Positions 4,983 to 32,532 of a stretch of DNA of 64,000 nucleotides are shown piece after piece; the stretch's first letter is position 1; the number at the start of each line of letters is the position of its first letter. The stretch spans positions 434,001 to 498,000 of the forward strand of contig JAHVKF010000003.1 of assembly GCA_019800895.1 (NCBI GenBank), read 5' to 3'. Both the position numbers and the translations under genes were made by a program. Below the pieces are notes generated by a model. It was not told the origin of the DNA, ran no database searches, and was given only the letters and a program-made list of their open reading frames with translations. The DNA comes from Halomonas denitrificans (GTDB lineage Bacteria > Pseudomonadota > Gammaproteobacteria > Xanthomonadales > Wenzhouxiangellaceae).

Positions 4983-6512
4983 ATGAGCGCAGACACCGAC
5001 CAGCACCACCTGAAGCTCCGCCAGACCGAGCTCGAGGACTACGCCGATATCGCCGAGATCATGGACCGGGTCTACCCCGGCAAGCTCGACGGGGCCTGGA
5101 CGAAGGAGCAGTTCGAGTCGCAGATCCAGCGTTTCCCGGAAGGGCAGCTCTGCATCGAGGACAACGGCAAGGTCGTGGCGGCGGCCATTTCGCTGCGGGT
5201 CAAGTACAGCCGCTGGGGCCACGACCACAAGTACTGGGACATCACCGGGAACGGGTACCTGACCACGCACGACCCGAAGGGCGACGTGCTCTACGGGGTC
5301 GACGTGTTTGTCCACCCCGACTACCGCGACCTGCGCCTGGGCCGCCGGCTCTACGACGCGCGCAAGGCGTTGTGCGAGCAGCTGAACCTGCGCGGCATCG
5401 TGGTCGGTGGCCGCATCCCCGGCTACGAGAAGCACCGCGAGGAGATGACGCCGCAGCAGTACGTCGACCAGGTGCGGGCGCGCGAGCTGGTCGATCCGAT
5501 CCTGACCTTCCAGCTGGCCAACGATTTCCAGGTCCGCAAGATCATCCGCGGCTACCTGCCCGACGACCAGCAGTCGCACGGCTTCGCGACCCTGCTCGAG
5601 TGGGTCAACATCTATCACACGGAGGAGTCGGACATCATCGGCGGCCGTCCGTCCGACGTCCGGATCGGCGCCGTGCAGTGGCAGATGCGACCGACCCGAT
5701 CGCTCGAAGACCTCTACGGGCAGATCGAGTACTTCGTCGATGCGGTCTCGGGCTACCAGGCCGACGTGGTGCTGTTCCCCGAGTTCTTCAACGGGCCGAT
5801 GATGGCACCGTGGAACGACCAGGGGCCGGCCGAAGCCGTTCGTCAGCTGGCCGGCTATACCGAGGCCATCCGCGAGCAGATGTTGAAGTTCGCGGTGTCG
5901 TACAACATCAATATCGTCGCCGGCTCGATGCCCGAGTACGACGGCGAGAAGCTGCGCAACGTCTGCTACCTGCTCCGGCGCGACGGTACCTGGGAGCGCC
6001 AGTACAAGATCCATGTCACCCCCGACGAGGTCAGCTACTGGGGCCTGGTCGGCGGCGACAAGGTCAGGGTCTTCGACACGGACTTCGGCAAGATCGGCAT
6101 CCTGGTCTGCTACGACGTCGAGTTTCCCGAGCTGCCGCGCCTGCTCGCCGAACAGGGGCTGCACATCCTGTTCGTCCCGTACTGGACCGACACCAAGAAC
6201 GCCTACCTGAGGGTTCGGCGTTGCGCCCAGGCGCGGGCCATCGAGAACGAGTGCTACGTGGTCATCTCCGGCTCGGTCGGCAACCTCCCGCGGGTCGAGA
6301 ACATGGACATGCAGTACTCCCAGGCCGCGGTGTTCACGCCGTCGGACTTCGCCTTCCCGCACGACGCCATCGCCGCCGAGGCGACCGCCAATACGGAGAC
6401 CATGCTGATCGCCGACCTCGATCTCGACAACCTGCGCGAGATCCGGTCGCATGGTTCCGTGCGCAACCTGCGCGATCGCAGGCTGGACCTGTACGAGCTC
6501 AAGTGGCGCTAA
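4983..6512 (+). CDS. Fused GNAT acetyltransferase / carbon-nitrogen hydrolase
   Basis: A 509-residue two-domain protein. Residues about 1-215 form a GNAT N-acyltransferase domain (LRQTELEDYADIAEIMDR, then the acyl-CoA-binding region 'VFVHPDYRDLRLGRRLYDAR'). Residues about 225-509 form a nitrilase-superfamily domain. Its triad is visible as Glu in 'LFPEFFNGPM', Lys in 'RQYKIHVTPDE' and Cys in 'IGILVCYDVEFPELPR'. This fusion is known as a family in proteobacteria, but its substrate is not known to me. A likely scheme is that one domain makes and the other breaks an amide bond on the same small molecule. Both active sites look intact. Confidence 0.9.
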   Translation: MSADTDQHHLKLRQTELEDYADIAEIMDRVYPGKLDGAWTKEQFESQIQRFPEGQLCIEDNGKVVAAAISLRVKYSRWGHDHKYWDITGNGYLTTHDPKGDVLYGVDVFVHPDYRDLRLGRRLYDARKALCEQLNLRGIVVGGRIPGYEKHREEMTPQQYVDQVRARELVDPILTFQLANDFQVRKIIRGYLPDDQQSHGFATLLEWVNIYHTEESDIIGGRPSDVRIGAVQWQMRPTRSLEDLYGQIEYFVDAVSGYQADVVLFPEFFNGPMMAPWNDQGPAEAVRQLAGYTEAIREQMLKFAVSYNINIVAGSMPEYDGEKLRNVCYLLRRDGTWERQYKIHVTPDEVSYWGLVGGDKVRVFDTDFGKIGILVCYDVEFPELPRLLAEQGLHILFVPYWTDTKNAYLRVRRCAQARAIENECYVVISGSVGNLPRVENMDMQYSQAAVFTPSDFAFPHDAIAAEATANTETMLIADLDLDNLREIRSHGSVRNLRDRRLDLYELKWR

Positions 6513-23901: not shown

Positions 23902-25101
23902 TCAGGCCGCGCGGCGCAGTTCGCCGAAGGCCTCGACGATGTGCTCGATCTGCTCCGGGCTGTGCGCCGCGCTCAGGCTGATGCGCAGCAGGTTGGTGCC
24001 CTTCGGCGTCGCGGGCGGAATCATCAGGTTGGCATAGACGCCGGCTTCGAGCAGGCCGTACCAGTGAGCCAGCGCGGCCTGCCGATCGGGCAGCACGATC
24101 GCCGCGACCGGCCCGGGCCGGTCGCTGCCTAGCCGGTAGCCGAGGTTGTCGAGCGCGGCGTAGAGCTGGTGGATGTTTGCCCACAGCCGCTCGCGCAGCG
24201 CCTGACCGTCGATGACCTTCTGCAGAGCCTGGCGCGTTGCCGCGATGACCGCGGGCGACGGCGACGCCGTGAAGATGTAGGGGCGCGCTGCGAGCCGGAG
24301 CAGTTCGAGCTCCCGGTGTCGGCTGACGCAGAATCCGCCGATGCCGGCCAGGCTCTTGGAGAACGTACCGACGACGAAATCGATTTCGTCGACCAGGCCG
24401 CGGTCCTCGGCCACACCCAGGCCGTGTTCGCCGAACACCCCGAAGGAGTGCGCTTCGTCGAGCAGCAGCCAGGCGCCGTGTCGCTTCTTGACCTCGATGA
24501 ATTCCTCCAGCGGAGGCTGGTCTCCCATCATCGAGTACAGACCTTCGACCACGATCAGGGCGCGGGACGCATCGTCACCGAGGCGCGCCAGCCGGCGATC
24601 GAGGTTGGCCGGGTCGTTGTGGCGGAAGATGACGGTCTGTGCATTGCCGAGCTTTGCGCCGTCGTAGATGCTCGCGTGCGAGTCGCTGTCGAGGAGCAGG
24701 AAGTCGTCTTTCCCGGCCAGGGCCGAGATCGCACCGAGATTGGCCTGGTAGCCGGTGGAGAACACCATCGCCGAGGGCCAGCCCCACGCCGCCGCAAGCT
24801 CCTGTTCCAGCGCCTGGTGATCGGAATAGCTGCCGTTGGCCATGCGCGACCCCGTGGTGCCCGTTCCGTGCCTGCTCAGCGCATCGCGGGCGGATTCGAC
24901 CACGTCCGGGTCCATGGTCAGGCCCAGGTAGTTGTTGGTGCCGGCGAGGATCACCCGCCGTCCGCCGATCGTGCCCTCCGTCGCCGAGTGGACCGCCTCG
25001 ATCGGCGTGGCGACCGGCGGGACCGCGTTCGGTCCGGCGCCGGCGCGGACGAGACCGGCGCGCGCTTCGGCCAGCGGCTTGAACTTGTCGAACAGGCTCA
25101 T
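23902..25101 (-). CDS. spt: Serine palmitoyltransferase-type alpha-oxoamine synthase
   Basis: A 399-residue PLP enzyme of the AONS/KBL/SPT family. Motifs fit soluble bacterial serine palmitoyltransferase best: 'LDSDSHASIYDGAKLGNA' with the stacking His142, 'VVEGLYSMMGDQPPL', 'LLDEAHSFGVFGEHG' with Asp215 and His218, Schiff-base Lys249 in 'VGTFSKSLAGIGGFCVS', 'RPYIFTASPSP', and the late 'PPATPKGTNLLRISLS'. SPT condenses serine with an acyl thioester to 3-ketosphinganine, the first step of sphingolipid synthesis. The ATG at 25101 overlaps the ACP stop (ATGA). Neighbouring ACP, reductase and acyl-AMP ligase support the sphingolipid role over biotin synthesis; no bio genes are near. Confidence 0.85.
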   Translation of the reverse strand: MSLFDKFKPLAEARAGLVRAGAGPNAVPPVATPIEAVHSATEGTIGGRRVILAGTNNYLGLTMDPDVVESARDALSRHGTGTTGSRMANGSYSDHQALEQELAAAWGWPSAMVFSTGYQANLGAISALAGKDDFLLLDSDSHASIYDGAKLGNAQTVIFRHNDPANLDRRLARLGDDASRALIVVEGLYSMMGDQPPLEEFIEVKKRHGAWLLLDEAHSFGVFGEHGLGVAEDRGLVDEIDFVVGTFSKSLAGIGGFCVSRHRELELLRLAARPYIFTASPSPAVIAATRQALQKVIDGQALRERLWANIHQLYAALDNLGYRLGSDRPGPVAAIVLPDRQAALAHWYGLLEAGVYANLMIPPATPKGTNLLRISLSAAHSPEQIEHIVEAFGELRRAA

Positions 25102-25355
25102 TCGTCCCGCTCCTCGACCAGCGGCTGGATCCGCGTCGCAAGCTCGTTCAGCGTGCGGGCTTCGGCCAGCGCCTCCAGCGGAATCGAAATATCCAGCCGG
25201 TCCTCGATCTCCATGACCAGGTCCATGACCTGGACCGAGTCGAGTCCGACGTCTCCGGTCAGGGTGGCATCGAAATCGATGCCCTCGAGCTCGGGCAGGG
25301 AAGCGGATACGGCGTCTTCGATCGCGCTGCGGATCCTGGGGGCGGCGTCGGTCAT
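25098..25355 (-). CDS. Dedicated acyl carrier protein (sphingolipid locus)
   Basis: An 85-residue acidic carrier protein. The phosphopantetheine attachment Ser40 lies in 'GDVGLDSVQVMDLVMEIEDR'. The usual DSL is DSV. It would carry the fatty acyl chain made ready by the acyl-AMP ligase and hand it to the SPT encoded next. The start at 25355 overlaps the stop of the reductase gene in ATGA; an upstream in-frame ATG at 25367 has no better ribosome site. Its stop in turn overlaps the spt start. The double overlap argues for strictly coupled expression of the three proteins. Confidence 0.9.
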   Translation of the reverse strand: MTDAAPRIRSAIEDAVSASLPELEGIDFDATLTGDVGLDSVQVMDLVMEIEDRLDISIPLEALAEARTLNELATRIQPLVEERDE

Positions 25356-26368
25356 GGGTGATTCCATCCGGGTAGCGTGGGCAGTGCGTCGGCCAGGGCC
25401 CGTTGGGGCGTCCAGTCGAGGTGCGCGGAAAGCGCGAGATTATCGCAGACCCAGTCAATGTGCCGCAATTCGCGGACCTTGCCCGGCGAAAGCAGGGCAC
25501 GCCGCCCGCGCAGGCGCTGGACGGCCAGCCCAGCGGCGCCGGCCGCGCCGAGGACCGCCGCGGGGACCGGCACGGTCCGCACGGGCCCGCCGCGGAGCCC
25601 GGCGGCCAGGGCCGCGATGTCCGCCCAGCGCCAGCCGCCGTCGGGTGCCGGCCCGGCCAGGGTCAGCGCGGTCCCGGTCGGGCCGTGTCCGGCCAAACGG
25701 TCGATCGCCTCGACCACATCGTCGACATGAACCAGAGAAAAGCGCGCATCGCGGGGACCGAGGCGAATCAGCCATCCGCGCGCAAGCGCTTTCCAGAAGT
25801 CGGCCAGGGCCGGATCACCGGGACCGTAGACTGCCGGCGGACGCAGGATGGACCGGCGCTCGCTCGGCAAGGCCTGCCAGACCCGCTCCGCCCCGGCCTT
25901 GGATGCCGCGTACCAGGACAGTTCGGGATGCTCCGCGGCCAGCGACGAGATCAGGATCGCGTGCGCTCCGGGCGCGCGGTCGTGGATCGCTTCGACCAGC
26001 CGACGGCTGCCCTCGACGTTGACGCGATCGAAGTCCTCGGCGCGGCTGCCGGCGATCGCGCCGGCGAGGTGGACCACCGCATCGGCACCTTCGACCAGCT
26101 CGGTGAGGGCGTCGGAATCGTCGAGATCGCCGTCGATCCGGGTGACACGGTCGGCCATCGCGCCGGAGAGCCGTCCTCGCCCGCGAACCAGCACGCGAAC
26201 CTCGAGTTCGGCCCGGTCGGGGCAGGAATGCGGCGTAGCGTCGGACGAGTCGCGGTCGTGTCCGGACGATTCCGGCCCGGAATCGCGGGGCCGGGAATCG
26301 GCGACAAGGCGCTCCAGCAGCGCCCGTCCGATGAAGCCGGTCACGCCGGTCAGCGCGAGGACCGGCAC
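25352..26368 (-). CDS. NAD(P)-dependent epimerase/dehydratase-type reductase, candidate ketosphinganine reductase (CerR-like)
   Basis: A 338-residue extended SDR. The cofactor site is 'LTGVTGFIGRALLERL', the active site 'ISSLAAEHPELSWYAASKAG' contains Ser and YxxxK, and 'RPPAVYGPGDPAL' is the typical following segment. A low-complexity polar insert at about residues 27-50 (rich in Asp, Ser, Arg) is not conserved in the family. By position between SPT/ACP and the ligase it matches the reductase CerR of the Caulobacter ceramide pathway, which reduces the 3-keto group; this equivalence is inference. It begins with GTG and lies three bases after the ligase gene. Confidence 0.8.
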   Translation of the reverse strand: MPVLALTGVTGFIGRALLERLVADSRPRDSGPESSGHDRDSSDATPHSCPDRAELEVRVLVRGRGRLSGAMADRVTRIDGDLDDSDALTELVEGADAVVHLAGAIAGSRAEDFDRVNVEGSRRLVEAIHDRAPGAHAILISSLAAEHPELSWYAASKAGAERVWQALPSERRSILRPPAVYGPGDPALADFWKALARGWLIRLGPRDARFSLVHVDDVVEAIDRLAGHGPTGTALTLAGPAPDGGWRWADIAALAAGLRGGPVRTVPVPAAVLGAAGAAGLAVQRLRGRRALLSPGKVRELRHIDWVCDNLALSAHLDWTPQRALADALPTLPGWNHP

Positions 26369-26371
26369 GGG

Positions 26372-28162
26372 TCAATCGACCTGGTTCAGGGCCTGCGTGT
26401 GGGGCGTTCGATCGACCAGTTCGCGCGGCAGGACTTCCGTGTCTTCGAGGCCGTTGCGCTTGAGGAAATCGAGCCGCGTTCCGCTGCGCGAGAGCTTGCC
26501 GGAGGACGTGCGCGGCAGCGTGTGCAATGGAACCAGCTCGATCAGGCAGGCGATGCCGAACTCGGACTGGATCTGCTGCTTGAGACGCTCGACCAGGCGG
26601 GCCTGGCGAAACGGGTCCTGTTCACGGCACTGGACGACCAGGACCGCGACCTCGCTGCCGTCTTCGGAGGCGATGGCGAAGGCCGAGGCGTCTTCGGGTC
26701 GGACCTCCGGCTGCTGTTCGGCGAGATACTCCAGGTCCTGCGGCCAGATGTTCCGGCCGTTGATGATCAACAGATCCTTGGCGCGGCCGGTGATGTAGAG
26801 CGAATCGCCGGCGCGATAGCCGACGTCGCCGGTGTTGAGCCAACCGTCGCCGGTCAGCGCTTCGGCGGTCGCCTGCTCGTTGTTCGCGTAGCCCGACATC
26901 ACGCTCGGGCCTCGCAGGTGAATCGTCCCGCAGTGACGCTCGGGGAGCAGGTTGCCGTCGGCATCGCGGATCTCGACCTCGTAGTCGGGCAGCGGCCGGC
27001 CGCAATTGACGAATTCGGTGACCCGCAGTTCGTCGTCGGTCGTGATCGGCTCGGCGCGACGCTCGCGGGCCAGCAGGTCCGCGTCCAGCCGGTCGACTTC
27101 CAGCCCCTGGCCGAGCGGCGCGAAGCTGACTGCCAGGGAACATTCGGCCATGCCGTAGCAGGGCAGGAACGCCGACTCGGAGAAGCGGGCCTCCGCCAGC
27201 GCTTCGGCGAAACGATGCAGCCAGTTCGAGCGGATCATCTCCGCGCCGACGCCGGCCACGCGCCAGGCCGACAGGTCGTAGCGCGATACGTCGCCCGGGC
27301 GCAGGCGGCGAGCGACCAGCGCGAAACCGAACGGCGGTGCGTAGGAAATCGTCGCGGCGTTCCGCGACATCAGTTCCAGCCACAGGCGCGGGCGCATCGC
27401 GAAATCGCGGGTGCCGAGATAGTCGACCGAGAGCTGCGAGACCACCGGTCCCAGGATCAGGCCCACGAGGCCCATGTCGTGGTAGAACGGCAGCCACGAC
27501 ATGTAGCGGTCGCCGCGCCGGATCTGGACGCCGTATTGCAGGATGCCGGCCAGGTTGGTCAGCACCGCGCGCTGGGTGATCATCGTGCCGCGCGGGAAAC
27601 GCGTGCTGCCGGACGTGTACTGGAGGTACGCCAGATCGTCGGCACCGGGCGCTTCGGGCAGTTCCGTCGCCGGCTCCAGCGCGTCGAAGGCGTCCAGCGT
27701 GCCGCTGACCGCCAGGTCCAGCCCGTCGACCGCGTCGCGCAGGAACGGTTCGAAATCGGACGAGGCGTAGGCAGCACGCGCCCGGCAATCCTGCAGCAGT
27801 GCGCGCAGGTGCTTGACGAATGCAGTCTTTCCGCCGAGATGCACCGCCGCCGGCAGCGGCACCGGGACGAGGCCGGCGTACTGGCAGGCGAAGAACATGA
27901 CGTGGAACTCGGGCTGCGTATCGGCGACCAGTGCGATGCGGCTGCCTCGCGGCAGACCGAGACCGGCGAGCTTCAGCGCGGTGGAGCGCGCTCTCTCGCG
28001 AAGATCGCTGTAGGTCATGACCGACGTCAGCTCGCCCCGGCCGTTGTGGAAATTGCAGCCCGTGGTCCCCTGGGCGGCGTAGTCCAGCGCTTCGGCGAGG
28101 CTCCGATAGCCGGAGGTTTTCAACGGCAGCGAATTCTGCGTGGGGGTTGGCTTCAGGCTCAA
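26372..28162 (-). CDS. Fatty acyl-AMP ligase (FAAL-type), sphingolipid locus
   Basis: About 596 residues, ANL superfamily. The phosphate loop is 'YLQYTSGSTRFPRGTMIT', followed by 'MSWLPFYHDMGLVGLILGPV', 'CYGMAECSLAVSF' and 'GWLNTGDVGYRAGDSLYITG', the pattern of fatty acyl-AMP ligases that load acyl chains onto carrier proteins. It would activate a fatty acid and load the adjacent ACP. The start is uncertain. The TTG at 28162 has AAGGGA eight bases upstream and lies downstream of a TATAAT box at 28237-28242. The frame stays open to a TTG at 28225, but that lies at the predicted transcription start and lacks a ribosome site. First gene of the left operon. Confidence 0.87.
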   Translation of the reverse strand: MSLKPTPTQNSLPLKTSGYRSLAEALDYAAQGTTGCNFHNGRGELTSVMTYSDLRERARSTALKLAGLGLPRGSRIALVADTQPEFHVMFFACQYAGLVPVPLPAAVHLGGKTAFVKHLRALLQDCRARAAYASSDFEPFLRDAVDGLDLAVSGTLDAFDALEPATELPEAPGADDLAYLQYTSGSTRFPRGTMITQRAVLTNLAGILQYGVQIRRGDRYMSWLPFYHDMGLVGLILGPVVSQLSVDYLGTRDFAMRPRLWLELMSRNAATISYAPPFGFALVARRLRPGDVSRYDLSAWRVAGVGAEMIRSNWLHRFAEALAEARFSESAFLPCYGMAECSLAVSFAPLGQGLEVDRLDADLLARERRAEPITTDDELRVTEFVNCGRPLPDYEVEIRDADGNLLPERHCGTIHLRGPSVMSGYANNEQATAEALTGDGWLNTGDVGYRAGDSLYITGRAKDLLIINGRNIWPQDLEYLAEQQPEVRPEDASAFAIASEDGSEVAVLVVQCREQDPFRQARLVERLKQQIQSEFGIACLIELVPLHTLPRTSSGKLSRSGTRLDFLKRNGLEDTEVLPRELVDRTPHTQALNQVD

Positions 28163-28236
28163 ACCGATGTTCCCTTGTTGTTCTGCGTTCTCGCGTAGAA
28201 TCGCCAGCGAGATGTTTTTTAACAAAATCTAATCGA

Positions 28237-28265
28237 CCATTATAAGACGCTGGCGTGTCAATGGA
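28237..28265 (-). promoter_or_regulatory. Putative sigma-70 promoter of the left sphingolipid operon
   Basis: On the minus strand a perfect TATAAT is preceded by a 17-base spacer and TTTCCA (four of six matches to TTGACA). The region 28190-28350 is strikingly AT-rich for this genome. A perfect TTGACA also occurs but only 11 bases from TATAAT, too close to serve. The divergent operon starts at 28384, so the same stretch must hold promoters for both directions. Confidence 0.6.
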
Positions 28266-28383
28266 AACACGTCTGGCCGGGCGCAACTTCGCAACACGCT
28301 ATTCCGAGCGCGCTTCATATTGTGTTAATGATCGCAATTCTGCAATATTCCGGCCCGATTATGCCAGTCGGGCGTTGTCGGCC

Positions 28384-29601
28384 ATGAGGCCGGCATGCCG
28401 CGGGGTCGACCTGCGCCCGGTGCGCACGCGCCGGGACTGGCTGCGTTTCCACGCGCTGCCCGAGCGCCTCTACGCCGCCGATCCGAACTGGATTCCACCG
28501 CTGAAGCTCCAGCAGCGTCAACTCTGGGCGCCGCGCAACCCGTTCTTCGAGCACGCGTCCGGCTGCGCCTGGATCGCCCTGCGCGACGGCAGGACCGTCG
28601 GACGCATCAGCGCCCAGGTCGACCGCCTGAACGAAAGCGAGGGCCGCGCGGACCTCGGCTGGTTCGGGCAGCTGGAAGCCGAAGACGACCTCGACGTGTT
28701 CGCCGCGCTGACCGGGGCCGCCGCCGATTGGCTGGGGCGAGCGGGCCGTCGCCGCATGCAGGGTCCCTTCGACCTGTCGATCAACCAGCAGTGCGGCCTC
28801 CTGGTCGACGGTTTCGATTCCCCGCCGATGATGCTGATGGGCCACGCGCCGCCGTATTACCGGTCGCGCCTGGCCGAGCTCGGCTTCGAAACCGCCGCGA
28901 CGCTGCTGGCCTACCAGGGGTCGCCGGCCTTCGACGATCCGCGCGGCATGCGCCGCGTTCTCGCGCGCCTCGGCGACCGCGTTCGCCTGCGCTCGATCGA
29001 CCGCGGTGAACTCGATCGGCACGCCGAGACCATGCGCGGCCTGTTCAACGACGCCTGGTCGGACAACTGGGGCTTCGTGCCGATGACCGAGAACGAGTTC
29101 CGGCACGCGATCCACGACATGAAACTGCTGATCCGCCCCGGCTATGTCCAGCTCGCGCTGCTCGACGACCGCCCGGCGGCCTTCATGGTGGCCCTGCCGG
29201 ATCTCAACGAGCTGACCCGCGATCTCGGCGGCCGGCTGTTTCCGGTCGGCGCGATCAAGCTGCTGTGGCGGGTCTGGCGCAAGTCGAACCGGCGCGTGCG
29301 GGTACCGCTGATGGGCGTGGCCGCACAGCACCATCGGAGCGTGACCGGTGCCGCGCTGAGCTACGCCATGATGGCGGCCACCCGGGACCACCTCCTGGCC
29401 GACGGCGTGGCCTGGGCGGAGCAGTCGTGGATTCTCGAGCAGAACCGCGGCATGCGATCGCTGATCGAGTCGCTGGGCATGCGCGTCGCCAAGCGGTACG
29501 AGATCGTCGAACGCGAGATTGCATCGCCGACCTCCGATCTGCCCGGCAACTCGCCCAACGATCCGCTCGGCGACCCGGCGCCGGACCGATCCGGGCGATG
29601 A
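28384..29601 (+). CDS. GNAT-fold acyltransferase, candidate bacterial ceramide synthase (bCerS)
   Basis: A 405-residue protein of the long GNAT-like group. N-terminal 'RTRRDWLRFHALPERLYAAD' and 'PNWIPPLKLQQRQLW', central 'MQGPFDLSINQQCGLLVDGF' and C-terminal 'VAWAEQSWILEQNRGMRSLI' fit what I recall of bCerS homologues, which N-acylate sphinganine with acyl-CoA in bacteria. Divergence from the SPT/ACP/reductase/ligase operon supports the role. No signal peptide or membrane segment is clear. The ATG at 28384 has no good ribosome site; an open frame continues upstream through AT-rich promoter DNA and is unlikely to be coding. Its stop overlaps the nucleotidyltransferase start (ATGA). Confidence 0.75.
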   Translation: MRPACRGVDLRPVRTRRDWLRFHALPERLYAADPNWIPPLKLQQRQLWAPRNPFFEHASGCAWIALRDGRTVGRISAQVDRLNESEGRADLGWFGQLEAEDDLDVFAALTGAAADWLGRAGRRRMQGPFDLSINQQCGLLVDGFDSPPMMLMGHAPPYYRSRLAELGFETAATLLAYQGSPAFDDPRGMRRVLARLGDRVRLRSIDRGELDRHAETMRGLFNDAWSDNWGFVPMTENEFRHAIHDMKLLIRPGYVQLALLDDRPAAFMVALPDLNELTRDLGGRLFPVGAIKLLWRVWRKSNRRVRVPLMGVAAQHHRSVTGAALSYAMMAATRDHLLADGVAWAEQSWILEQNRGMRSLIESLGMRVAKRYEIVEREIASPTSDLPGNSPNDPLGDPAPDRSGR

Positions 29602-30398
29602 GTTCCGGCGCGCTTGCGATCGTGGTCCTGGCCGGCGACCGGGGCCCCGGCGACCCGCTCGCCGCGGCGGCGGGGGTTCCGGGCAAGGTGCTGGTGCCGG
29701 TAGCCGGCCGGGCCATGCTGCTTCGGGTGCTCGATGCTGCAGGCGGCCTCGACGCCGATCCGCCGATCCGCCTGGTGCGGCCGGATCATGCTGCCTACGG
29801 GGCCGCGCTGACCGGCAGCCCCGAAACCCGGCGAATCGAACCCGCCGCCGGCCCGGCCGCCAGCGTGTCCGCCGCGATGGCCGATATCGATGTCGGTCGT
29901 CCGGTGCTGGTCCTGACCGGCGACCACCCTTTGCTGACCGCCGATCGACTCCGCCGCTTCATCGACCAGGCGGCCGCCACGGGTGCCGACGCCGTGGTCG
30001 GCCTGGCCGATGCCGACGCCGTCCAGGCGCGTTTTCCAGAGGGTCGCCGGACGCGCTACCGCTTCGCCGATCGGCGGGTCTGCGGCACCAACCTGTTTCT
30101 CGTGCGCACCGCGGCAGGGCGGCGGCTGATCGCCCAATGGCAGGCCTTCGAGCGCGACCGCAAGCGACCCTGGCGGATCATCCGGCGTCTCGGCGTGATC
30201 AATCTGATTCGCTACCTGCGCCGTCGCCTGACCGTGGACGACGCGTTCGCGGCGCTGTCGAAACGCTTGGGCGTGACCGCCGCGCCGGTGCTCGTCGATT
30301 GGCCGGAAGCCGCCGTGGACGTCGACACGCCCGATGACCTTGCGCTGGTCGAGCGGGTCTTCGCCGAGCAGGCCGCGGCGGACGGAGCGTCGCGATGA
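29598..30398 (+). CDS. MobA-like nucleotidyltransferase, sphingolipid locus
   Basis: A 266-residue protein with an NTP-transferase Rossmann-like fold. The N-terminal signature 'LAGDRGPGDPLAAAAGVPGK' then 'VLVPVAGRAMLLRVLDA' is the nucleotide-binding loop, and 'VLVLTGDHPLLTADRLRRFI' holds the metal-binding Asp. The C-terminal half ('VCGTNLFLVRTAAGRRLI', 'WPEAAVDVDTPDDLALVE') is typical of a family often labelled nucleotidyltransferase. MobA itself is unlikely because no molybdopterin genes are near. By context it could activate a head-group precursor (for example a CDP-linked moiety) for ceramide modification. That is inference. It overlaps both neighbours by four bases. Confidence 0.8.
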   Translation: MSSGALAIVVLAGDRGPGDPLAAAAGVPGKVLVPVAGRAMLLRVLDAAGGLDADPPIRLVRPDHAAYGAALTGSPETRRIEPAAGPAASVSAAMADIDVGRPVLVLTGDHPLLTADRLRRFIDQAAATGADAVVGLADADAVQARFPEGRRTRYRFADRRVCGTNLFLVRTAAGRRLIAQWQAFERDRKRPWRIIRRLGVINLIRYLRRRLTVDDAFAALSKRLGVTAAPVLVDWPEAAVDVDTPDDLALVERVFAEQAAADGASR

Positions 30399-31462
30399 AG
30401 CGCATCGAGCGCTACGTCGCCGCCCAGCTGCTGCGGCCGATCTTCGGCGTCTTCTCGGTCGTGCTGCTGGTAATGCTGGCCTACTACTTCTCCAGCTACC
30501 TTGCCGACGCGGTCATCGATCGGCTTTCCATCGGCGCGGTGGTCACGCTCGCGACCCTGAAGCTCGGTCTGTTCTTCGACGTGTTGATTCCGGCCGCGAT
30601 CTTTCTCGGCACCATCACCGGGTTGGGACGCCTGCAGAGCGGTTACGAGATGACCGCCATCGCCGCCTCGGGCGTCGGTCGCGCCAGGATCGTTCGCGCG
30701 GTGCTGGCCATCGCGCTGCTCGGCGTGCTGCTCGTTGCCGCGATCACCCACGTGTTCCGGCCCTGGGCCTACGAGACCCTGTACCGGATGGAAGGCGAGC
30801 TGGTCGCCCGCGTCGACCTGTCGCGGGTCGAGCCGGGGCGGTTCGAGATCGGCGACGAGGAGTGGATGATCTTCGCCGAGGCCCGGGACGGGTCGGTGCT
30901 CTACGACGTCCTGGTCCACCAACGCACGCCGACCTATCGCAACCTGCTGCGCGCCGAGCAGCTGGCGCAGCGCGACGGGGCGGACGGCTCGATCGCGCTG
31001 GAGTTCAGCGGGGACGTCCGCTCCTACCGGCTGCAGCAGGGCGGCGACGCCGACCTGGTCGGCCGCAGCGAGCGCCTGGTCGTGCAGTTCGATCCGCCCG
31101 AACCGGTCGAGCCCTCGCGCAAGCGGCGCGAGCTCGGCCTGACGGAACTCATGGCCGGCGGCGGGGCGCTGGAATGGGGCGAGTTGCAGTGGCGCACGCT
31201 GATGCCGCTGTCGGTGGTCGTGCTCGCCGGACTGGCGCTCGCGGTTGCGCGGATCAATCCGCGGCACGGACAGACCTCGCGGGTGATTCTCGCCACGGTG
31301 CTGGTCACGCTCTACTTTGCCGCGGTCGGCACGCTGGCCAATCGGGTCGATGCCGCGACCATGCCGATCTGGCCCGGTCTGTTCTGGGCGCCGCTGGGCA
31401 CCCTGGTCTTCGTCGGCCTGCGGCTCTGGCGCAACTGGCGTGGACCCGGAGCGCCGTTGTGA
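30395..31462 (+). CDS. lptF: LptF-type permease of a lipid exporter
   Basis: A 355-residue YjgP/YjgQ family protein. Three N-terminal helices ('MKRIERYVAAQLLRPIFGVF', 'LKLGLFFDVLIPAAIFLGTI'), the coupling-helix region 'LGRLQSGYEMTAIAASGVGR', a periplasmic beta-jellyroll (about residues 130-265) and three C-terminal helices are seen. LptF and LptG form the transmembrane part of the LptB2FG transporter that extracts lipopolysaccharide. In most gammaproteobacteria lptF is divergent from pepA; here it sits inside a ceramide locus and overlaps the nucleotidyltransferase gene (ATGA). It may be a second pair specialised for sphingolipid export, or the only pair in this genome. Confidence 0.88.
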   Translation: MKRIERYVAAQLLRPIFGVFSVVLLVMLAYYFSSYLADAVIDRLSIGAVVTLATLKLGLFFDVLIPAAIFLGTITGLGRLQSGYEMTAIAASGVGRARIVRAVLAIALLGVLLVAAITHVFRPWAYETLYRMEGELVARVDLSRVEPGRFEIGDEEWMIFAEARDGSVLYDVLVHQRTPTYRNLLRAEQLAQRDGADGSIALEFSGDVRSYRLQQGGDADLVGRSERLVVQFDPPEPVEPSRKRRELGLTELMAGGGALEWGELQWRTLMPLSVVVLAGLALAVARINPRHGQTSRVILATVLVTLYFAAVGTLANRVDAATMPIWPGLFWAPLGTLVFVGLRLWRNWRGPGAPL

Positions 31463-32532
31463 AGGTGCTCGACCGCTACCTGATGACGCGACTGGTCCGC
31501 GGCTACGGCGGCATGGCGTTGGCCGTCGGCGCCCTGGTCTGGCTGACCGCGCTGCTCGACGCCCTGGGCGAGGCCGGCGGCCGCTCGAACATGCTCGGCA
31601 CGCTGTGGTCGGCCACGACCGCCGTGCCCGTACAGCTGATCGACCTCCTGCCGGTGGTCACGGTGCTGGCGACCGCGAGCGTGCTCGCCGGCCTGCAGGC
31701 CCAGCGCGAACTGACGGTGATGCGGGCCGCCGGAACGTCGCTGCTCCACGTGACCCGGTTGGCCCTGGTTCCCGCGCTGGCGGTCGCGCTGGCCGCGCTG
31801 GCCGCCCTGCAGTTCCTGGCCCCGGTGCTCTATCCGCCCGGCGAGCGCATCGAACAGGGCCAGGCGGCCGCGCCCGGCGAAAGCAGCCTGTGGCATCCGT
31901 GGCACGGTCTCTGGGTGCGTTCGGACGTCGACTTCATGAACGTGGGACGGTTCGATCCCGGGCAGCTTCCCGGCGAAATCGCGATCTACGAGTTCGACGA
32001 GGACGGCGCGTTCGAGCGCCAGATCCGCGCCGAGCGCGCGGTGCCGGCGCCGCAGACCTGGACCCTGGAGGAGGTCACGGTCAAGCGCATCGACGATGTC
32101 GGTCGACCGCGCATCGAACGGCACGACACCTACCGCTGGTCGTCGTTCCTGACCGCACGTCAGCTCGAGCTGTTCCGGCAACCACCGTCCAGCCTGCCCT
32201 TGTCCGACCTGTGGACCTATGTGGCCAGCCTGAAGGACCGCGCCCAGGATGCATCGGAGTTCGAGCTGGTGCTGTGGCGGCGGATCACGCTGCCGCTGGC
32301 CGGCATCGGCATGGTGCTGATCGCCGCGGCGCTGGCGGCGTCGCCCGGCAAGGGCCGCGGCTTCAGCCTCAAGCTGGTTGCGGCGATCGGGATCGGGCTG
32401 GGATACCACCTGCTGGCCGGCATGGCCGGATTCTTTGCCCTGGTCACCGACCTGCCGCCGGCGCCGGTGGTCCTGGTCCCGCCGTTGCTGCTGGTGGCTG
32501 TTGCGACCGTACTTCTCGCGCGAAGCCGCTGA
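31459..32532 (+). CDS. lptG: LptG-type permease of a lipid exporter
   Basis: A 357-residue partner of the preceding LptF. It begins with GTG in a GTGA overlap. The N-terminus 'VKVLDRYLMTRLVRGYGGMA', the coupling region 'GLQAQRELTVMRAAGTSL' and a periplasmic jellyroll (about 135-265) are followed by 'LVLWRRITLPLAGIGMVLIA' and two further helices. LptG usually provides much of the lateral gate contact for the lipid. The neighbouring LptB ATPase and LptC are not in the window, so the ATPase must be encoded elsewhere. It is the last gene of the right operon, and a hairpin follows 27 bases after the stop. Confidence 0.87.
   Translation: MKVLDRYLMTRLVRGYGGMALAVGALVWLTALLDALGEAGGRSNMLGTLWSATTAVPVQLIDLLPVVTVLATASVLAGLQAQRELTVMRAAGTSLLHVTRLALVPALAVALAALAALQFLAPVLYPPGERIEQGQAAAPGESSLWHPWHGLWVRSDVDFMNVGRFDPGQLPGEIAIYEFDEDGAFERQIRAERAVPAPQTWTLEEVTVKRIDDVGRPRIERHDTYRWSSFLTARQLELFRQPPSSLPLSDLWTYVASLKDRAQDASEFELVLWRRITLPLAGIGMVLIAAALAASPGKGRGFSLKLVAAIGIGLGYHLLAGMAGFFALVTDLPPAPVVLVPPLLLVAVATVLLARSR

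Follow-up and report, generated by a model that had tools for sequence, protein, structure and literature searches.

Transport of bacterial sphingolipids by a machinery resembling that for lipopolysaccharide (LPS) was proposed in 2024 for Caulobacter crescentus, where Olea-Ozuna et al. named LptC2, LptF2 and LptG2 in the cluster CC_1168-CC_1152 and suggested that phosphosphingolipids reach the outer membrane by an Lpt-like route analogous to that of LPS (PMC11324152). In the parts of that paper drawn on here, its authors state that transport was not investigated and list orthologues for A. vinelandii and P. luteola (gammaproteobacteria) and N. eutropha (a betaproteobacterium); the route of bacterial sphingolipids to the outer membrane is stated to be unknown both there and in the portion consulted of PMC11087976. 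A ceramide locus has likewise been described in E. coli B (yghO, aasR, epi, acpR, spt; Padilla-Gomez et al. 2022, PMC9386255), and the adjacent lptF/lptG pair goes unmentioned in the abstract and one section of that work. Here we describe a locus of eight genes within a 64,000-nucleotide stretch (the window, positions 434001-498000 of contig JAHVKF010000003.1, or C3) of the 3.2 Mb, six-contig genome of Halomonas denitrificans GCA_019800895.1, placed in the Wenzhouxiangellaceae. The eight genes form two divergent four-gene operons, spt-acpR-cerR-aasR on the minus strand and cerS, a nucleotidyltransferase gene, lptF2 and lptG2 on the plus strand. We consider it probable, at roughly two chances in three, that these genes constitute a locus for assembling and exporting a bacterial sphingolipid, in which LptF2G2 would export the product via a shared LptB and Lpt bridge. 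The system is real and conserved, and its core idea, in print as an untested proposal, is here strengthened and widened.

The likeness to the Caulobacter cluster, so far as the consulted parts of its description go, extends to five ceramide genes, a CofC-like nucleotidyltransferase (CC_1153), and a second LptF (CC_1156) and LptG (CC_1155) next to cerS (CC_1154) by gene number, so that a second lptF and lptG beside ceramide genes are common to both. We liken our nucleotidyltransferase to CC_1153 on the strength of its family and its position, not of a sequence alignment, and the Caulobacter ceramide kinase (CC_1160) and CDP-diacylglycerol-synthase-like CC_1161 have possible counterparts in a DAGK_cat protein and a Tam41-like protein. 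Unlike in Caulobacter, these two are encoded here in a second operon, together with LpxL-like, MsbA-like ATP-binding cassette (ABC), glycosyltransferase-like and desaturase/hydroxylase genes. An earlier note, made from the letters of this DNA, had proposed an Lpt-like route for sphingolipids at this locus. The private permease pair and the ceramide genes on which it relied hold up, but the general idea is not new, since it was proposed for Caulobacter in 2024, and the locus proved to be only part of the system. A literature search that did not reach most subscription journals and preprints showed, among the matches listed, no further work on sphingolipid export of an Lpt-like kind; LptF2 or LptG2 was named along with sphingolipid in one paper, and within the same scope no paper was found on an LptFG2 clade with a recruitment in Carnimonas, on the residue pattern, on the lipid-A-like operon or on the E. 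coli lptFG2-spt pair. Wenzhouxiangella and sphingolipid occurred together, among the matches listed, in coral and biofilter metagenome studies whose retrieved parts mention each word once.

The back-to-back operons read in the earlier note were confirmed, with all eight genes at their coordinates and on their strands (Table 1) and with right-hand junctions of ATGA, ATGA and GTGA. In the left operon, spt/acpR and acpR/cerR each overlap by 4 bp and a 3 bp gap separates cerR from aasR; all eight reading frames are intact. The ceramide pathway genes claimed for the locus are also borne out, as spt, acpR, aasR, cerR and cerS are all present, which is the gene set of a rhodobacterial sphingolipid (ceramide) locus and, as far as the sections of the E. 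coli B paper used here describe it, the same five genes with the same logic of a dedicated AcpR and AasR. The acpR gene lies between spt and cerR, matching published aasR/acpR/spt loci. At E 0.001 the GNAT protein had no match among the Pfam and NCBIfam models, and Pfam gave none even at E 1. Its AlphaFold2 model (predicted local distance difference test, pLDDT, 84.3; predicted TM-score 0.83) has a tandem GNAT fold, for which Foldseek retrieved tandem GNAT enzymes as top PDB matches (best E 1.6e-13), and the protein is 37-40% identical over about 370 residues to homologues at the spt loci of 19 Enterobacterales. The E. coli homologue is yghO, assigned as the ceramide-pathway N-acyltransferase in the part of Padilla-Gomez et al. 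2022 (PMC9386255) consulted, and we call the protein CerS because of the tandem GNAT model and this homology. By this protein the closest named relative, among the best 80 of 192 matches, is Wenzhouxiangella sp. XN79A (72% identity).

As the earlier note had predicted, the genome holds a second LptF/LptG pair beside the leucyl aminopeptidase gene pepA; the locus pair is therefore not the only lptFG of the genome, and genome search and trees both support it as a private pair distinct from the canonical, pepA-linked one. CerS was found in 32 of 43 Wenzhouxiangellaceae genomes and not in the other 11. At least three LptF/LptG matches were present in 30/32 CerS-positive genomes versus 0/11 CerS-negative ones, which had at most two; these counts are uncorrected for relatedness and some matches are fragments. 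When only genomes of 90% completeness or more are counted, the figures were 20/20 versus 0/5. In the two CerS-positive exceptions, G001 (85% complete) and G038 (63%), the pair lying on the same contig as CerS was the only one seen. Fifteen named genomes were also sampled: nine gammaproteobacterial isolates from outside the family (three Pseudomonas, five Enterobacterales and Carnimonas) and W. limi had four LptF/LptG matches each, and the counts were four, four and six in three alphaproteobacteria and three and four in two planctomycetes, some of these being split matches.

Conservation of the layout was assessed in 94 annotated sources, namely 80 loci from a scan of named genomes (its 80 best out of 192 confirmed matches), 13 fetched stretches, of which one served as a CerS-free control, and the window; three duplicate rows were removed from the count of distinct loci, and many of the other annotated loci are truncated by contig ends. 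Another 26 distinct loci, from 19 Wenzhouxiangellaceae, 6 Pseudomonas and 1 unclassified gammaproteobacterial metagenome-assembled genome (MAG), preserve the complete set of eight with gene order and divergence unchanged, the position of cerR included. The eight-gene arrangement is far beyond chance. In four Wenzhouxiangellaceae loci (L111, L112, L114, L116) the nucleotidyltransferase gene is the sole one missing, and it was not found within the fetched stretches of the 19 Enterobacterales loci, which keep the five ceramide genes and carry lptF2G2 within the fetched stretch in 15 cases. The LptFG2 pair stays tied to sphingolipid genes while the surrounding genes vary by lineage.

Some divergent arrangements were also seen. 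Twelve Planctomycete and Cloacimonadota loci have CerS-like genes, and spt was not found within their fetched stretches: the Cloacimonadota loci L094, L095, L096 and L104 carry two or three tandem CerS-like GNAT genes, and the Planctomycete loci L064, L081, L090, L091, L099-L101 and L103 (Rhodopirellula and kin) a CerS-like GNAT gene, with no LptFG2 in the fetched stretch. Genome G005, which belongs to the same genus as the window genome, carries a divergent CerS (30% identity) at C119:17587-18723 (L107) and its LptFG2 pair on a different contig, where a short second CerS match adjoins the pair (C136:20530-24232, partly covered by L187).

Maximum-likelihood trees were built from 58 LptF and 58 LptG sequences, a subset picked for spread that omits the Planctomycete and Cloacimonadota loci and Caulobacter's own LptFG, and in which the label canonical is an assumption for the alphaproteobacterial rows. 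The 31 locus-linked LptF form one clade (support 100/99), as do the 31 locus-linked LptG (95/94); both clades comprise gammaproteobacterial loci plus one Geobacter MAG, and the clade occurs at sphingolipid loci of Wenzhouxiangellaceae, Pseudomonas, Enterobacterales and others. The canonical LptF and LptG of the same genomes fall outside. The locus pair is thus separate from the canonical proteins and coexists with a canonical pair; the earlier note had named the opposite outcome as grounds for giving up its proposal. Approximately unbiased (AU) tests were run on LptF, with groups named after inspection of the tree. A recent duplication of the resident pair in Wenzhouxiangellaceae, with the locus LptF joined to its own canonical LptF, was rejected (AU p 0.0012). 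In Carnimonas nigrificans the locus-linked pair is the sister of that genome's own canonical pair (100/100 in both trees), the canonical one being the pair that adjoins pepA, and placing the Carnimonas LptF in the gammaproteobacterial clade was rejected (AU p 3e-5); in this species the locus pair is a duplicate of the resident one, and LptFG was recruited independently to a sphingolipid locus. The locus-linked LptF of Pararhizobium and three other alphaproteobacterial LptF stand apart from the gammaproteobacterial clade, and a single origin of the two groups is disfavoured for LptF, though not firmly (AU p 0.0057). Because the branches are long and the rows few, a separate alphaproteobacterial origin is only suggested; of these pairs, only L088 lies truly within its locus; two of the others are some 30-80 kb distant from CerS, and the last is on a different contig. 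The gammaproteobacterial LptFG2 clade is set off from the alphaproteobacterial pairs sampled.

LptF2 and LptG2 share with the LPS exporter LptB2FGC the permease family and the glutamates that couple it to LptB, and differ from it in forming a separate clade and in some of the sites that contact lipid A phosphates. The published coupling glutamates are LptF E84 and LptG E88; the former is kept in 59/59 LptF2 and the latter in 50/54 LptG2, and the window proteins have E at both sites. The published phosphate contacts are K34, K40, K62, R133 and R136 in LptG and R33 and K317 in LptF, and all seven are non-basic in the window (LptG A34, G40, V62, E133 and E136; LptF S33 and A317). The R133 site is R or K in none of the 54 LptG2 versus 12/19 canonical gammaproteobacterial LptG, and the K40 site, R or K in the same fraction of canonical proteins (12/19), is basic in 0/54 LptG2 and acidic in 48/54. 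The R136 site is R in 19/19 canonical gammaproteobacterial proteins, including 10/10 from Wenzhouxiangellaceae; it is R or K in 26/26 LptG2 from outside this family and in only 5/28 from within it (E in the window). This residue pattern fits a permease that would still talk to LptB and whose cavity would be partly remodelled, most of all in Wenzhouxiangellaceae.

An extra lptB or lptC, for which the earlier note had suggested a search, was not found: the genome has one LptC, one LptD_N/LptA-type match, one LptD and one LptB above cut-off (389 bits; next match 150.7, cut-off 240), and no extra LptB, LptC, LptA or LptD scored above cut-off genome-wide. From these single copies, LptF2G2 would have to borrow LptB and the bridge, and the copy numbers suggest that the LPS bridge is shared. 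The second LptC of the Caulobacter-type cluster (CC_1168) thus has no counterpart here, and its orthologue is also reported to be absent from A. vinelandii, P. luteola and N. eutropha (PMC11324152, in the parts consulted).

The eight-gene locus is not the complete pathway, as a compact operon on the minus strand, 239 kb distant at C3:705775-714408, holds further genes. It encodes a fatty acid desaturase family protein, a kinase, a Tam41-like protein, an ABC protein, an LpxL-family acyltransferase, a 753-aa protein and a DUF4124 protein, to which several relatives add a 2-oxoglutarate-Fe(II) oxygenase; the kinase and Tam41-like genes were first met as conserved neighbours at other sphingolipid loci. 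The profile of the DAGK-type lipid kinase reaches YegS-type, DgkB and sphingosine kinase structures, and that of the Tam41-like protein best matches Tam41, the mitochondrial phosphatidate cytidylyltransferase (E 2e-4). The 753-aa protein has a weak ELM1 (glycosyltransferase-like) match in its C-terminal half and a non-significant GT8 match (E 0.41) in its N-terminal half, where its structural model is poor (mean pLDDT 62.5); what the model matches, with low TM-scores, are glycosyltransferases of the GT-B type and related epimerases. The LpxL-family acyltransferase and the MsbA-like ABC protein recall lipid A enzymes, but the ABC protein scores far below the MsbA cut-off (242 bits versus 602), with the canonical MsbA encoded elsewhere (683 bits), and the operon is fused to the sphingolipid locus in W. 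limi C33, where it continues directly from spt and the sixteen genes from DUF4124 to lptG2 make one cluster. At six of six Pseudomonas loci an ABC gene follows spt, and the kinase and Tam41-like genes follow lptG2. Across the 43 Wenzhouxiangellaceae genomes, the Tam41-like gene occurs in 28 and a strong kinase match (at least 164 bits, all others at most 47.5) in the same 28, always with CerS; an ELM1 match occurs in 27, again always with CerS, and lies in a separate 344-411 aa protein in G006-G010 (and by Pfam in G002), while the window genome also holds a separate, stronger-scoring ELM1 protein. The nucleotidyltransferase-type enzymes that the earlier note had placed in the pathway are supported. 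Ceramide would pass through ceramide phosphate and a nucleotide-activated ceramide to a glycosylated, acylated product, much as lipid A is assembled.

From the genes and their families, their co-occurrence, the phylogeny and the residue pattern, all of which are read directly, we infer the enzymatic steps, the head group, the sharing of LptB, LptC, LptA and LptD, and the transport as follows. AasR would load a fatty acid onto AcpR, serine palmitoyltransferase (SPT) would condense it with serine, CerS would N-acylate the SPT product and CerR would reduce it, giving ceramide. Enzymes of the second operon may then phosphorylate it (the ceramide-kinase-like protein), activate it with a nucleotide (the Tam41-like protein), glycosylate it and acylate it further, and the MsbA-like ABC protein might flip the sphingolipid. 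LptF2 and LptG2 would draw the completed sphingolipid, anionic or glycosylated, out of the inner membrane, powered by the cell's LptB ATPase, and pass it to the shared LptC-LptA-LptD bridge toward the outer membrane. The Caulobacter proposal would thereby become a family-level prediction with specific residues and a shared-ATPase model. A broader version, which we hold more tentatively and at somewhat less than even odds, is that the Lpt bridge is a multi-client machine: a sphingolipid line parallel to that of lipid A, equipped with a kinase, nucleotide activation, a glycosyltransferase, secondary acylation of LpxL type and flipping of MsbA type of its own, would deliver its product by swapping LptF2G2 onto the same LptB and LptC/LptA/LptD, and this widespread clade would have been overlooked partly through the IS5 element in E. 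coli MG1655 and annotation as LPS export. Were LptB and the bridge shared, drugs that target the Lpt bridge might act on sphingolipid export as well.

Several observations weigh against sphingolipid export by LptF2G2. The LptF R33 and K317 sites are R or K in 21/21 LptF2, and the LptG K62 and R136 sites in 17/17 LptG2, of Pseudomonas and Enterobacterales, and the R33, K317 and K34 sites are basic in 0/10 canonical Wenzhouxiangellaceae proteins each, so that these three are uninformative in that family. The Pseudomonas L065 and E. coli L075 (E69) pairs pass the LPS-permease equivalog cut-offs for LptF (TIGR04407) and LptG (TIGR04408), with 294.8 and 308.7 bits and 313.4 and 299.8 bits, respectively; among the LptFG2 pairs scored, only the window's falls just below them (Table 1), the canonical pair of the window genome scoring 244.9 and 276.6. 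With L065 and L075 above the cut-offs, the equivalog models fail to separate LptFG2 from LptFG and were rejected as a discriminator. No lptFG2 lies within the fetched stretch at 4 of the 19 Enterobacterales loci (L058, L071, L080, L083), although the genomes of L058 and L071 nonetheless carry four LptF/LptG genes. The CerS-positive genomes G021, G022, G024 and G029 (65-84% complete) hold LptFG2 and lack Tam41-like, ELM1 and full-strength kinase matches, through either incomplete assembly or a different head group. Lastly, 40 further matches to the LptB model (best 150.7 bits) represent other ABC ATPases that could replace LptB. The basic sites and the model scores, together with the common family, the retained coupling glutamates and the presence of LptB, LptC, LptA and LptD to share, would suit an alternative LPS permease, serving for instance modified LPS or stress and only by chance co-regulated with the sphingolipid genes, which would balance envelope charge. 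We regard this as unlikely, as CerS-negative relatives with canonical LptFG have no extra copies, the pair is linked to spt and cerS in several gene orders and was duplicated independently in Carnimonas, and R133 and a basic K40 are lost in all 54 LptG2 sampled.

LptF2G2 might also act on sphingolipids without exporting them. It could be a flippase, serve retrograde movement or quality control, or have a regulatory role in which competition for LptB slows LPS export during sphingolipid synthesis. A shared LptB would permit such competition, and export has never been measured, the consulted parts of Olea-Ozuna et al. 2024 (PMC11324152) having left transport aside; yet the separate MsbA-like ABC protein of the second operon already suits the part of flippase, and canonical LptFG extracts lipid toward the periplasmic bridge, which makes this alternative quite improbable. 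The last rival, in which the genes were acquired, make nothing of importance and are now decaying or almost idle, could draw on the 11 of 43 Wenzhouxiangellaceae genomes in which CerS was not found and on the missing block in E. coli MG1655. With eight intact frames, the same layout at 26 other loci and the block kept in most E. coli genomes, we would give it very little credence, and sphingolipid assembly and export remains our preferred reading.

The E. coli block was followed in 5,426 complete genomes, counting genes that covered at least 80% of the query for the lptF2G2 pair and spt. The pair is present in 4,060, spt in 4,047, and the 7.8 kb block spanning lptF2 to yghO in 4,015, about three quarters. 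Occurrence in a gammaproteobacterium, which had been called noteworthy, is thus not unusual, and was already published for A. vinelandii, P. luteola and E. coli BL21. BL21(DE3) carries the block (NC_012971.2:2989282-2999842, L205; lptF/lptG at 2,994,920-2,997,066), with aasR-cerR-acpR-spt-lptG2-lptF2 and two more genes at the place where K-12 MG1655 has IS5, between yghO and yghQ (NC_000913.3:3129043-3134823, L206). Since one has the block and the other IS5, the export idea can be tested in laboratory strains, for which BL21(DE3) and MG1655 form a natural pair. The K-12 genes yghO, yghQ, yghR, yghS and yghT are plausibly remnants or neighbours of a sphingolipid locus. The RefSeq E. coli records examined name the locus pair as LPS export LptF/LptG (e.g., NZ_CP092639.1:736439-738585, beside spt), and lptF and lptG of the E. 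coli sphingolipid locus are likely misannotated.

Table 1. Features of the sphingolipid locus, in window coordinates.
Feature	Position	Strand	Evidence
spt, serine palmitoyltransferase	23902..25101	-	NF047599 589.8 bits (cut-off 500); PF00155
acpR, dedicated acyl carrier protein	25098..25355	-	PF00550 51.7 bits; DSV serine in sequence
cerR, ceramide reductase, NAD-dependent epimerase family	25352..26368	-	PF01370 77 bits
aasR, acyl-ACP synthetase of fatty acyl-AMP ligase type	26372..28225	-	NF006624 758.7 bits (cut-off 600)
Divergent intergenic region, A+T-rich	28226..28383		
cerS (bCerS/YghO type), tandem-GNAT ceramide synthase	28384..29601	+	AlphaFold2/Foldseek; homology to Enterobacterales loci
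MobA/CofC-like nucleotidyltransferase	29598..30398	+	PF12804 51.1 bits
lptF2, sphingolipid-locus LptF	30395..31462	+	PF03739 154 bits; TIGR04407 217.9 (below cut-off 230); tree
lptG2, sphingolipid-locus LptG	31459..32532	+	PF03739 188.7 bits; TIGR04408 236.8 (below cut-off 240); tree

A few details of these features are worth recording. The NF006624 match to AasR begins at residue 26, and the true start of aasR is probably near 28150; the cerS reading frame is open from 28255. A minus-strand sigma-70-like match lies at 28267-28239 (1 found versus 0.2 expected in 28050-28450, by consensus only). The nucleotidyltransferase was rejected as MobA, GlmU or CofC, with matches far below the cut-offs, e.g., 32.5 bits to the F420 CofC model (cut-off 105). 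To the left, the locus is flanked by a pair of minus-strand genes for S9-type peptidases, and to the right by a HiPIP gene, an open reading frame (ORF) with no Pfam match, tilS and accA. With duplicate rows counted, relatives of the HiPIP ORF occur in 24 of the 94 sources, of the tilS ORF in 22 and of the accA ORF in 21, and because these neighbours recur the locus would appear to sit at an old, stable genomic position in Wenzhouxiangellaceae.

Other neighbours differ by lineage. In the Wenzhouxiangella loci L028, L032, L033, L036, L037, L043, L052 and L092 (to about position 5600), a conserved NeuB-plus-cupin gene and unassigned neighbours lie by spt, a neighbourhood that is perhaps a sugar head-group module. 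Small proteins with weak P-loop/thymidylate-kinase-like matches recur at the sphingolipid loci of Pseudomonas, Carnimonas and Enterobacterales (L063:2063-3731, L046:8303-9953 and E. coli yghS/yghT).

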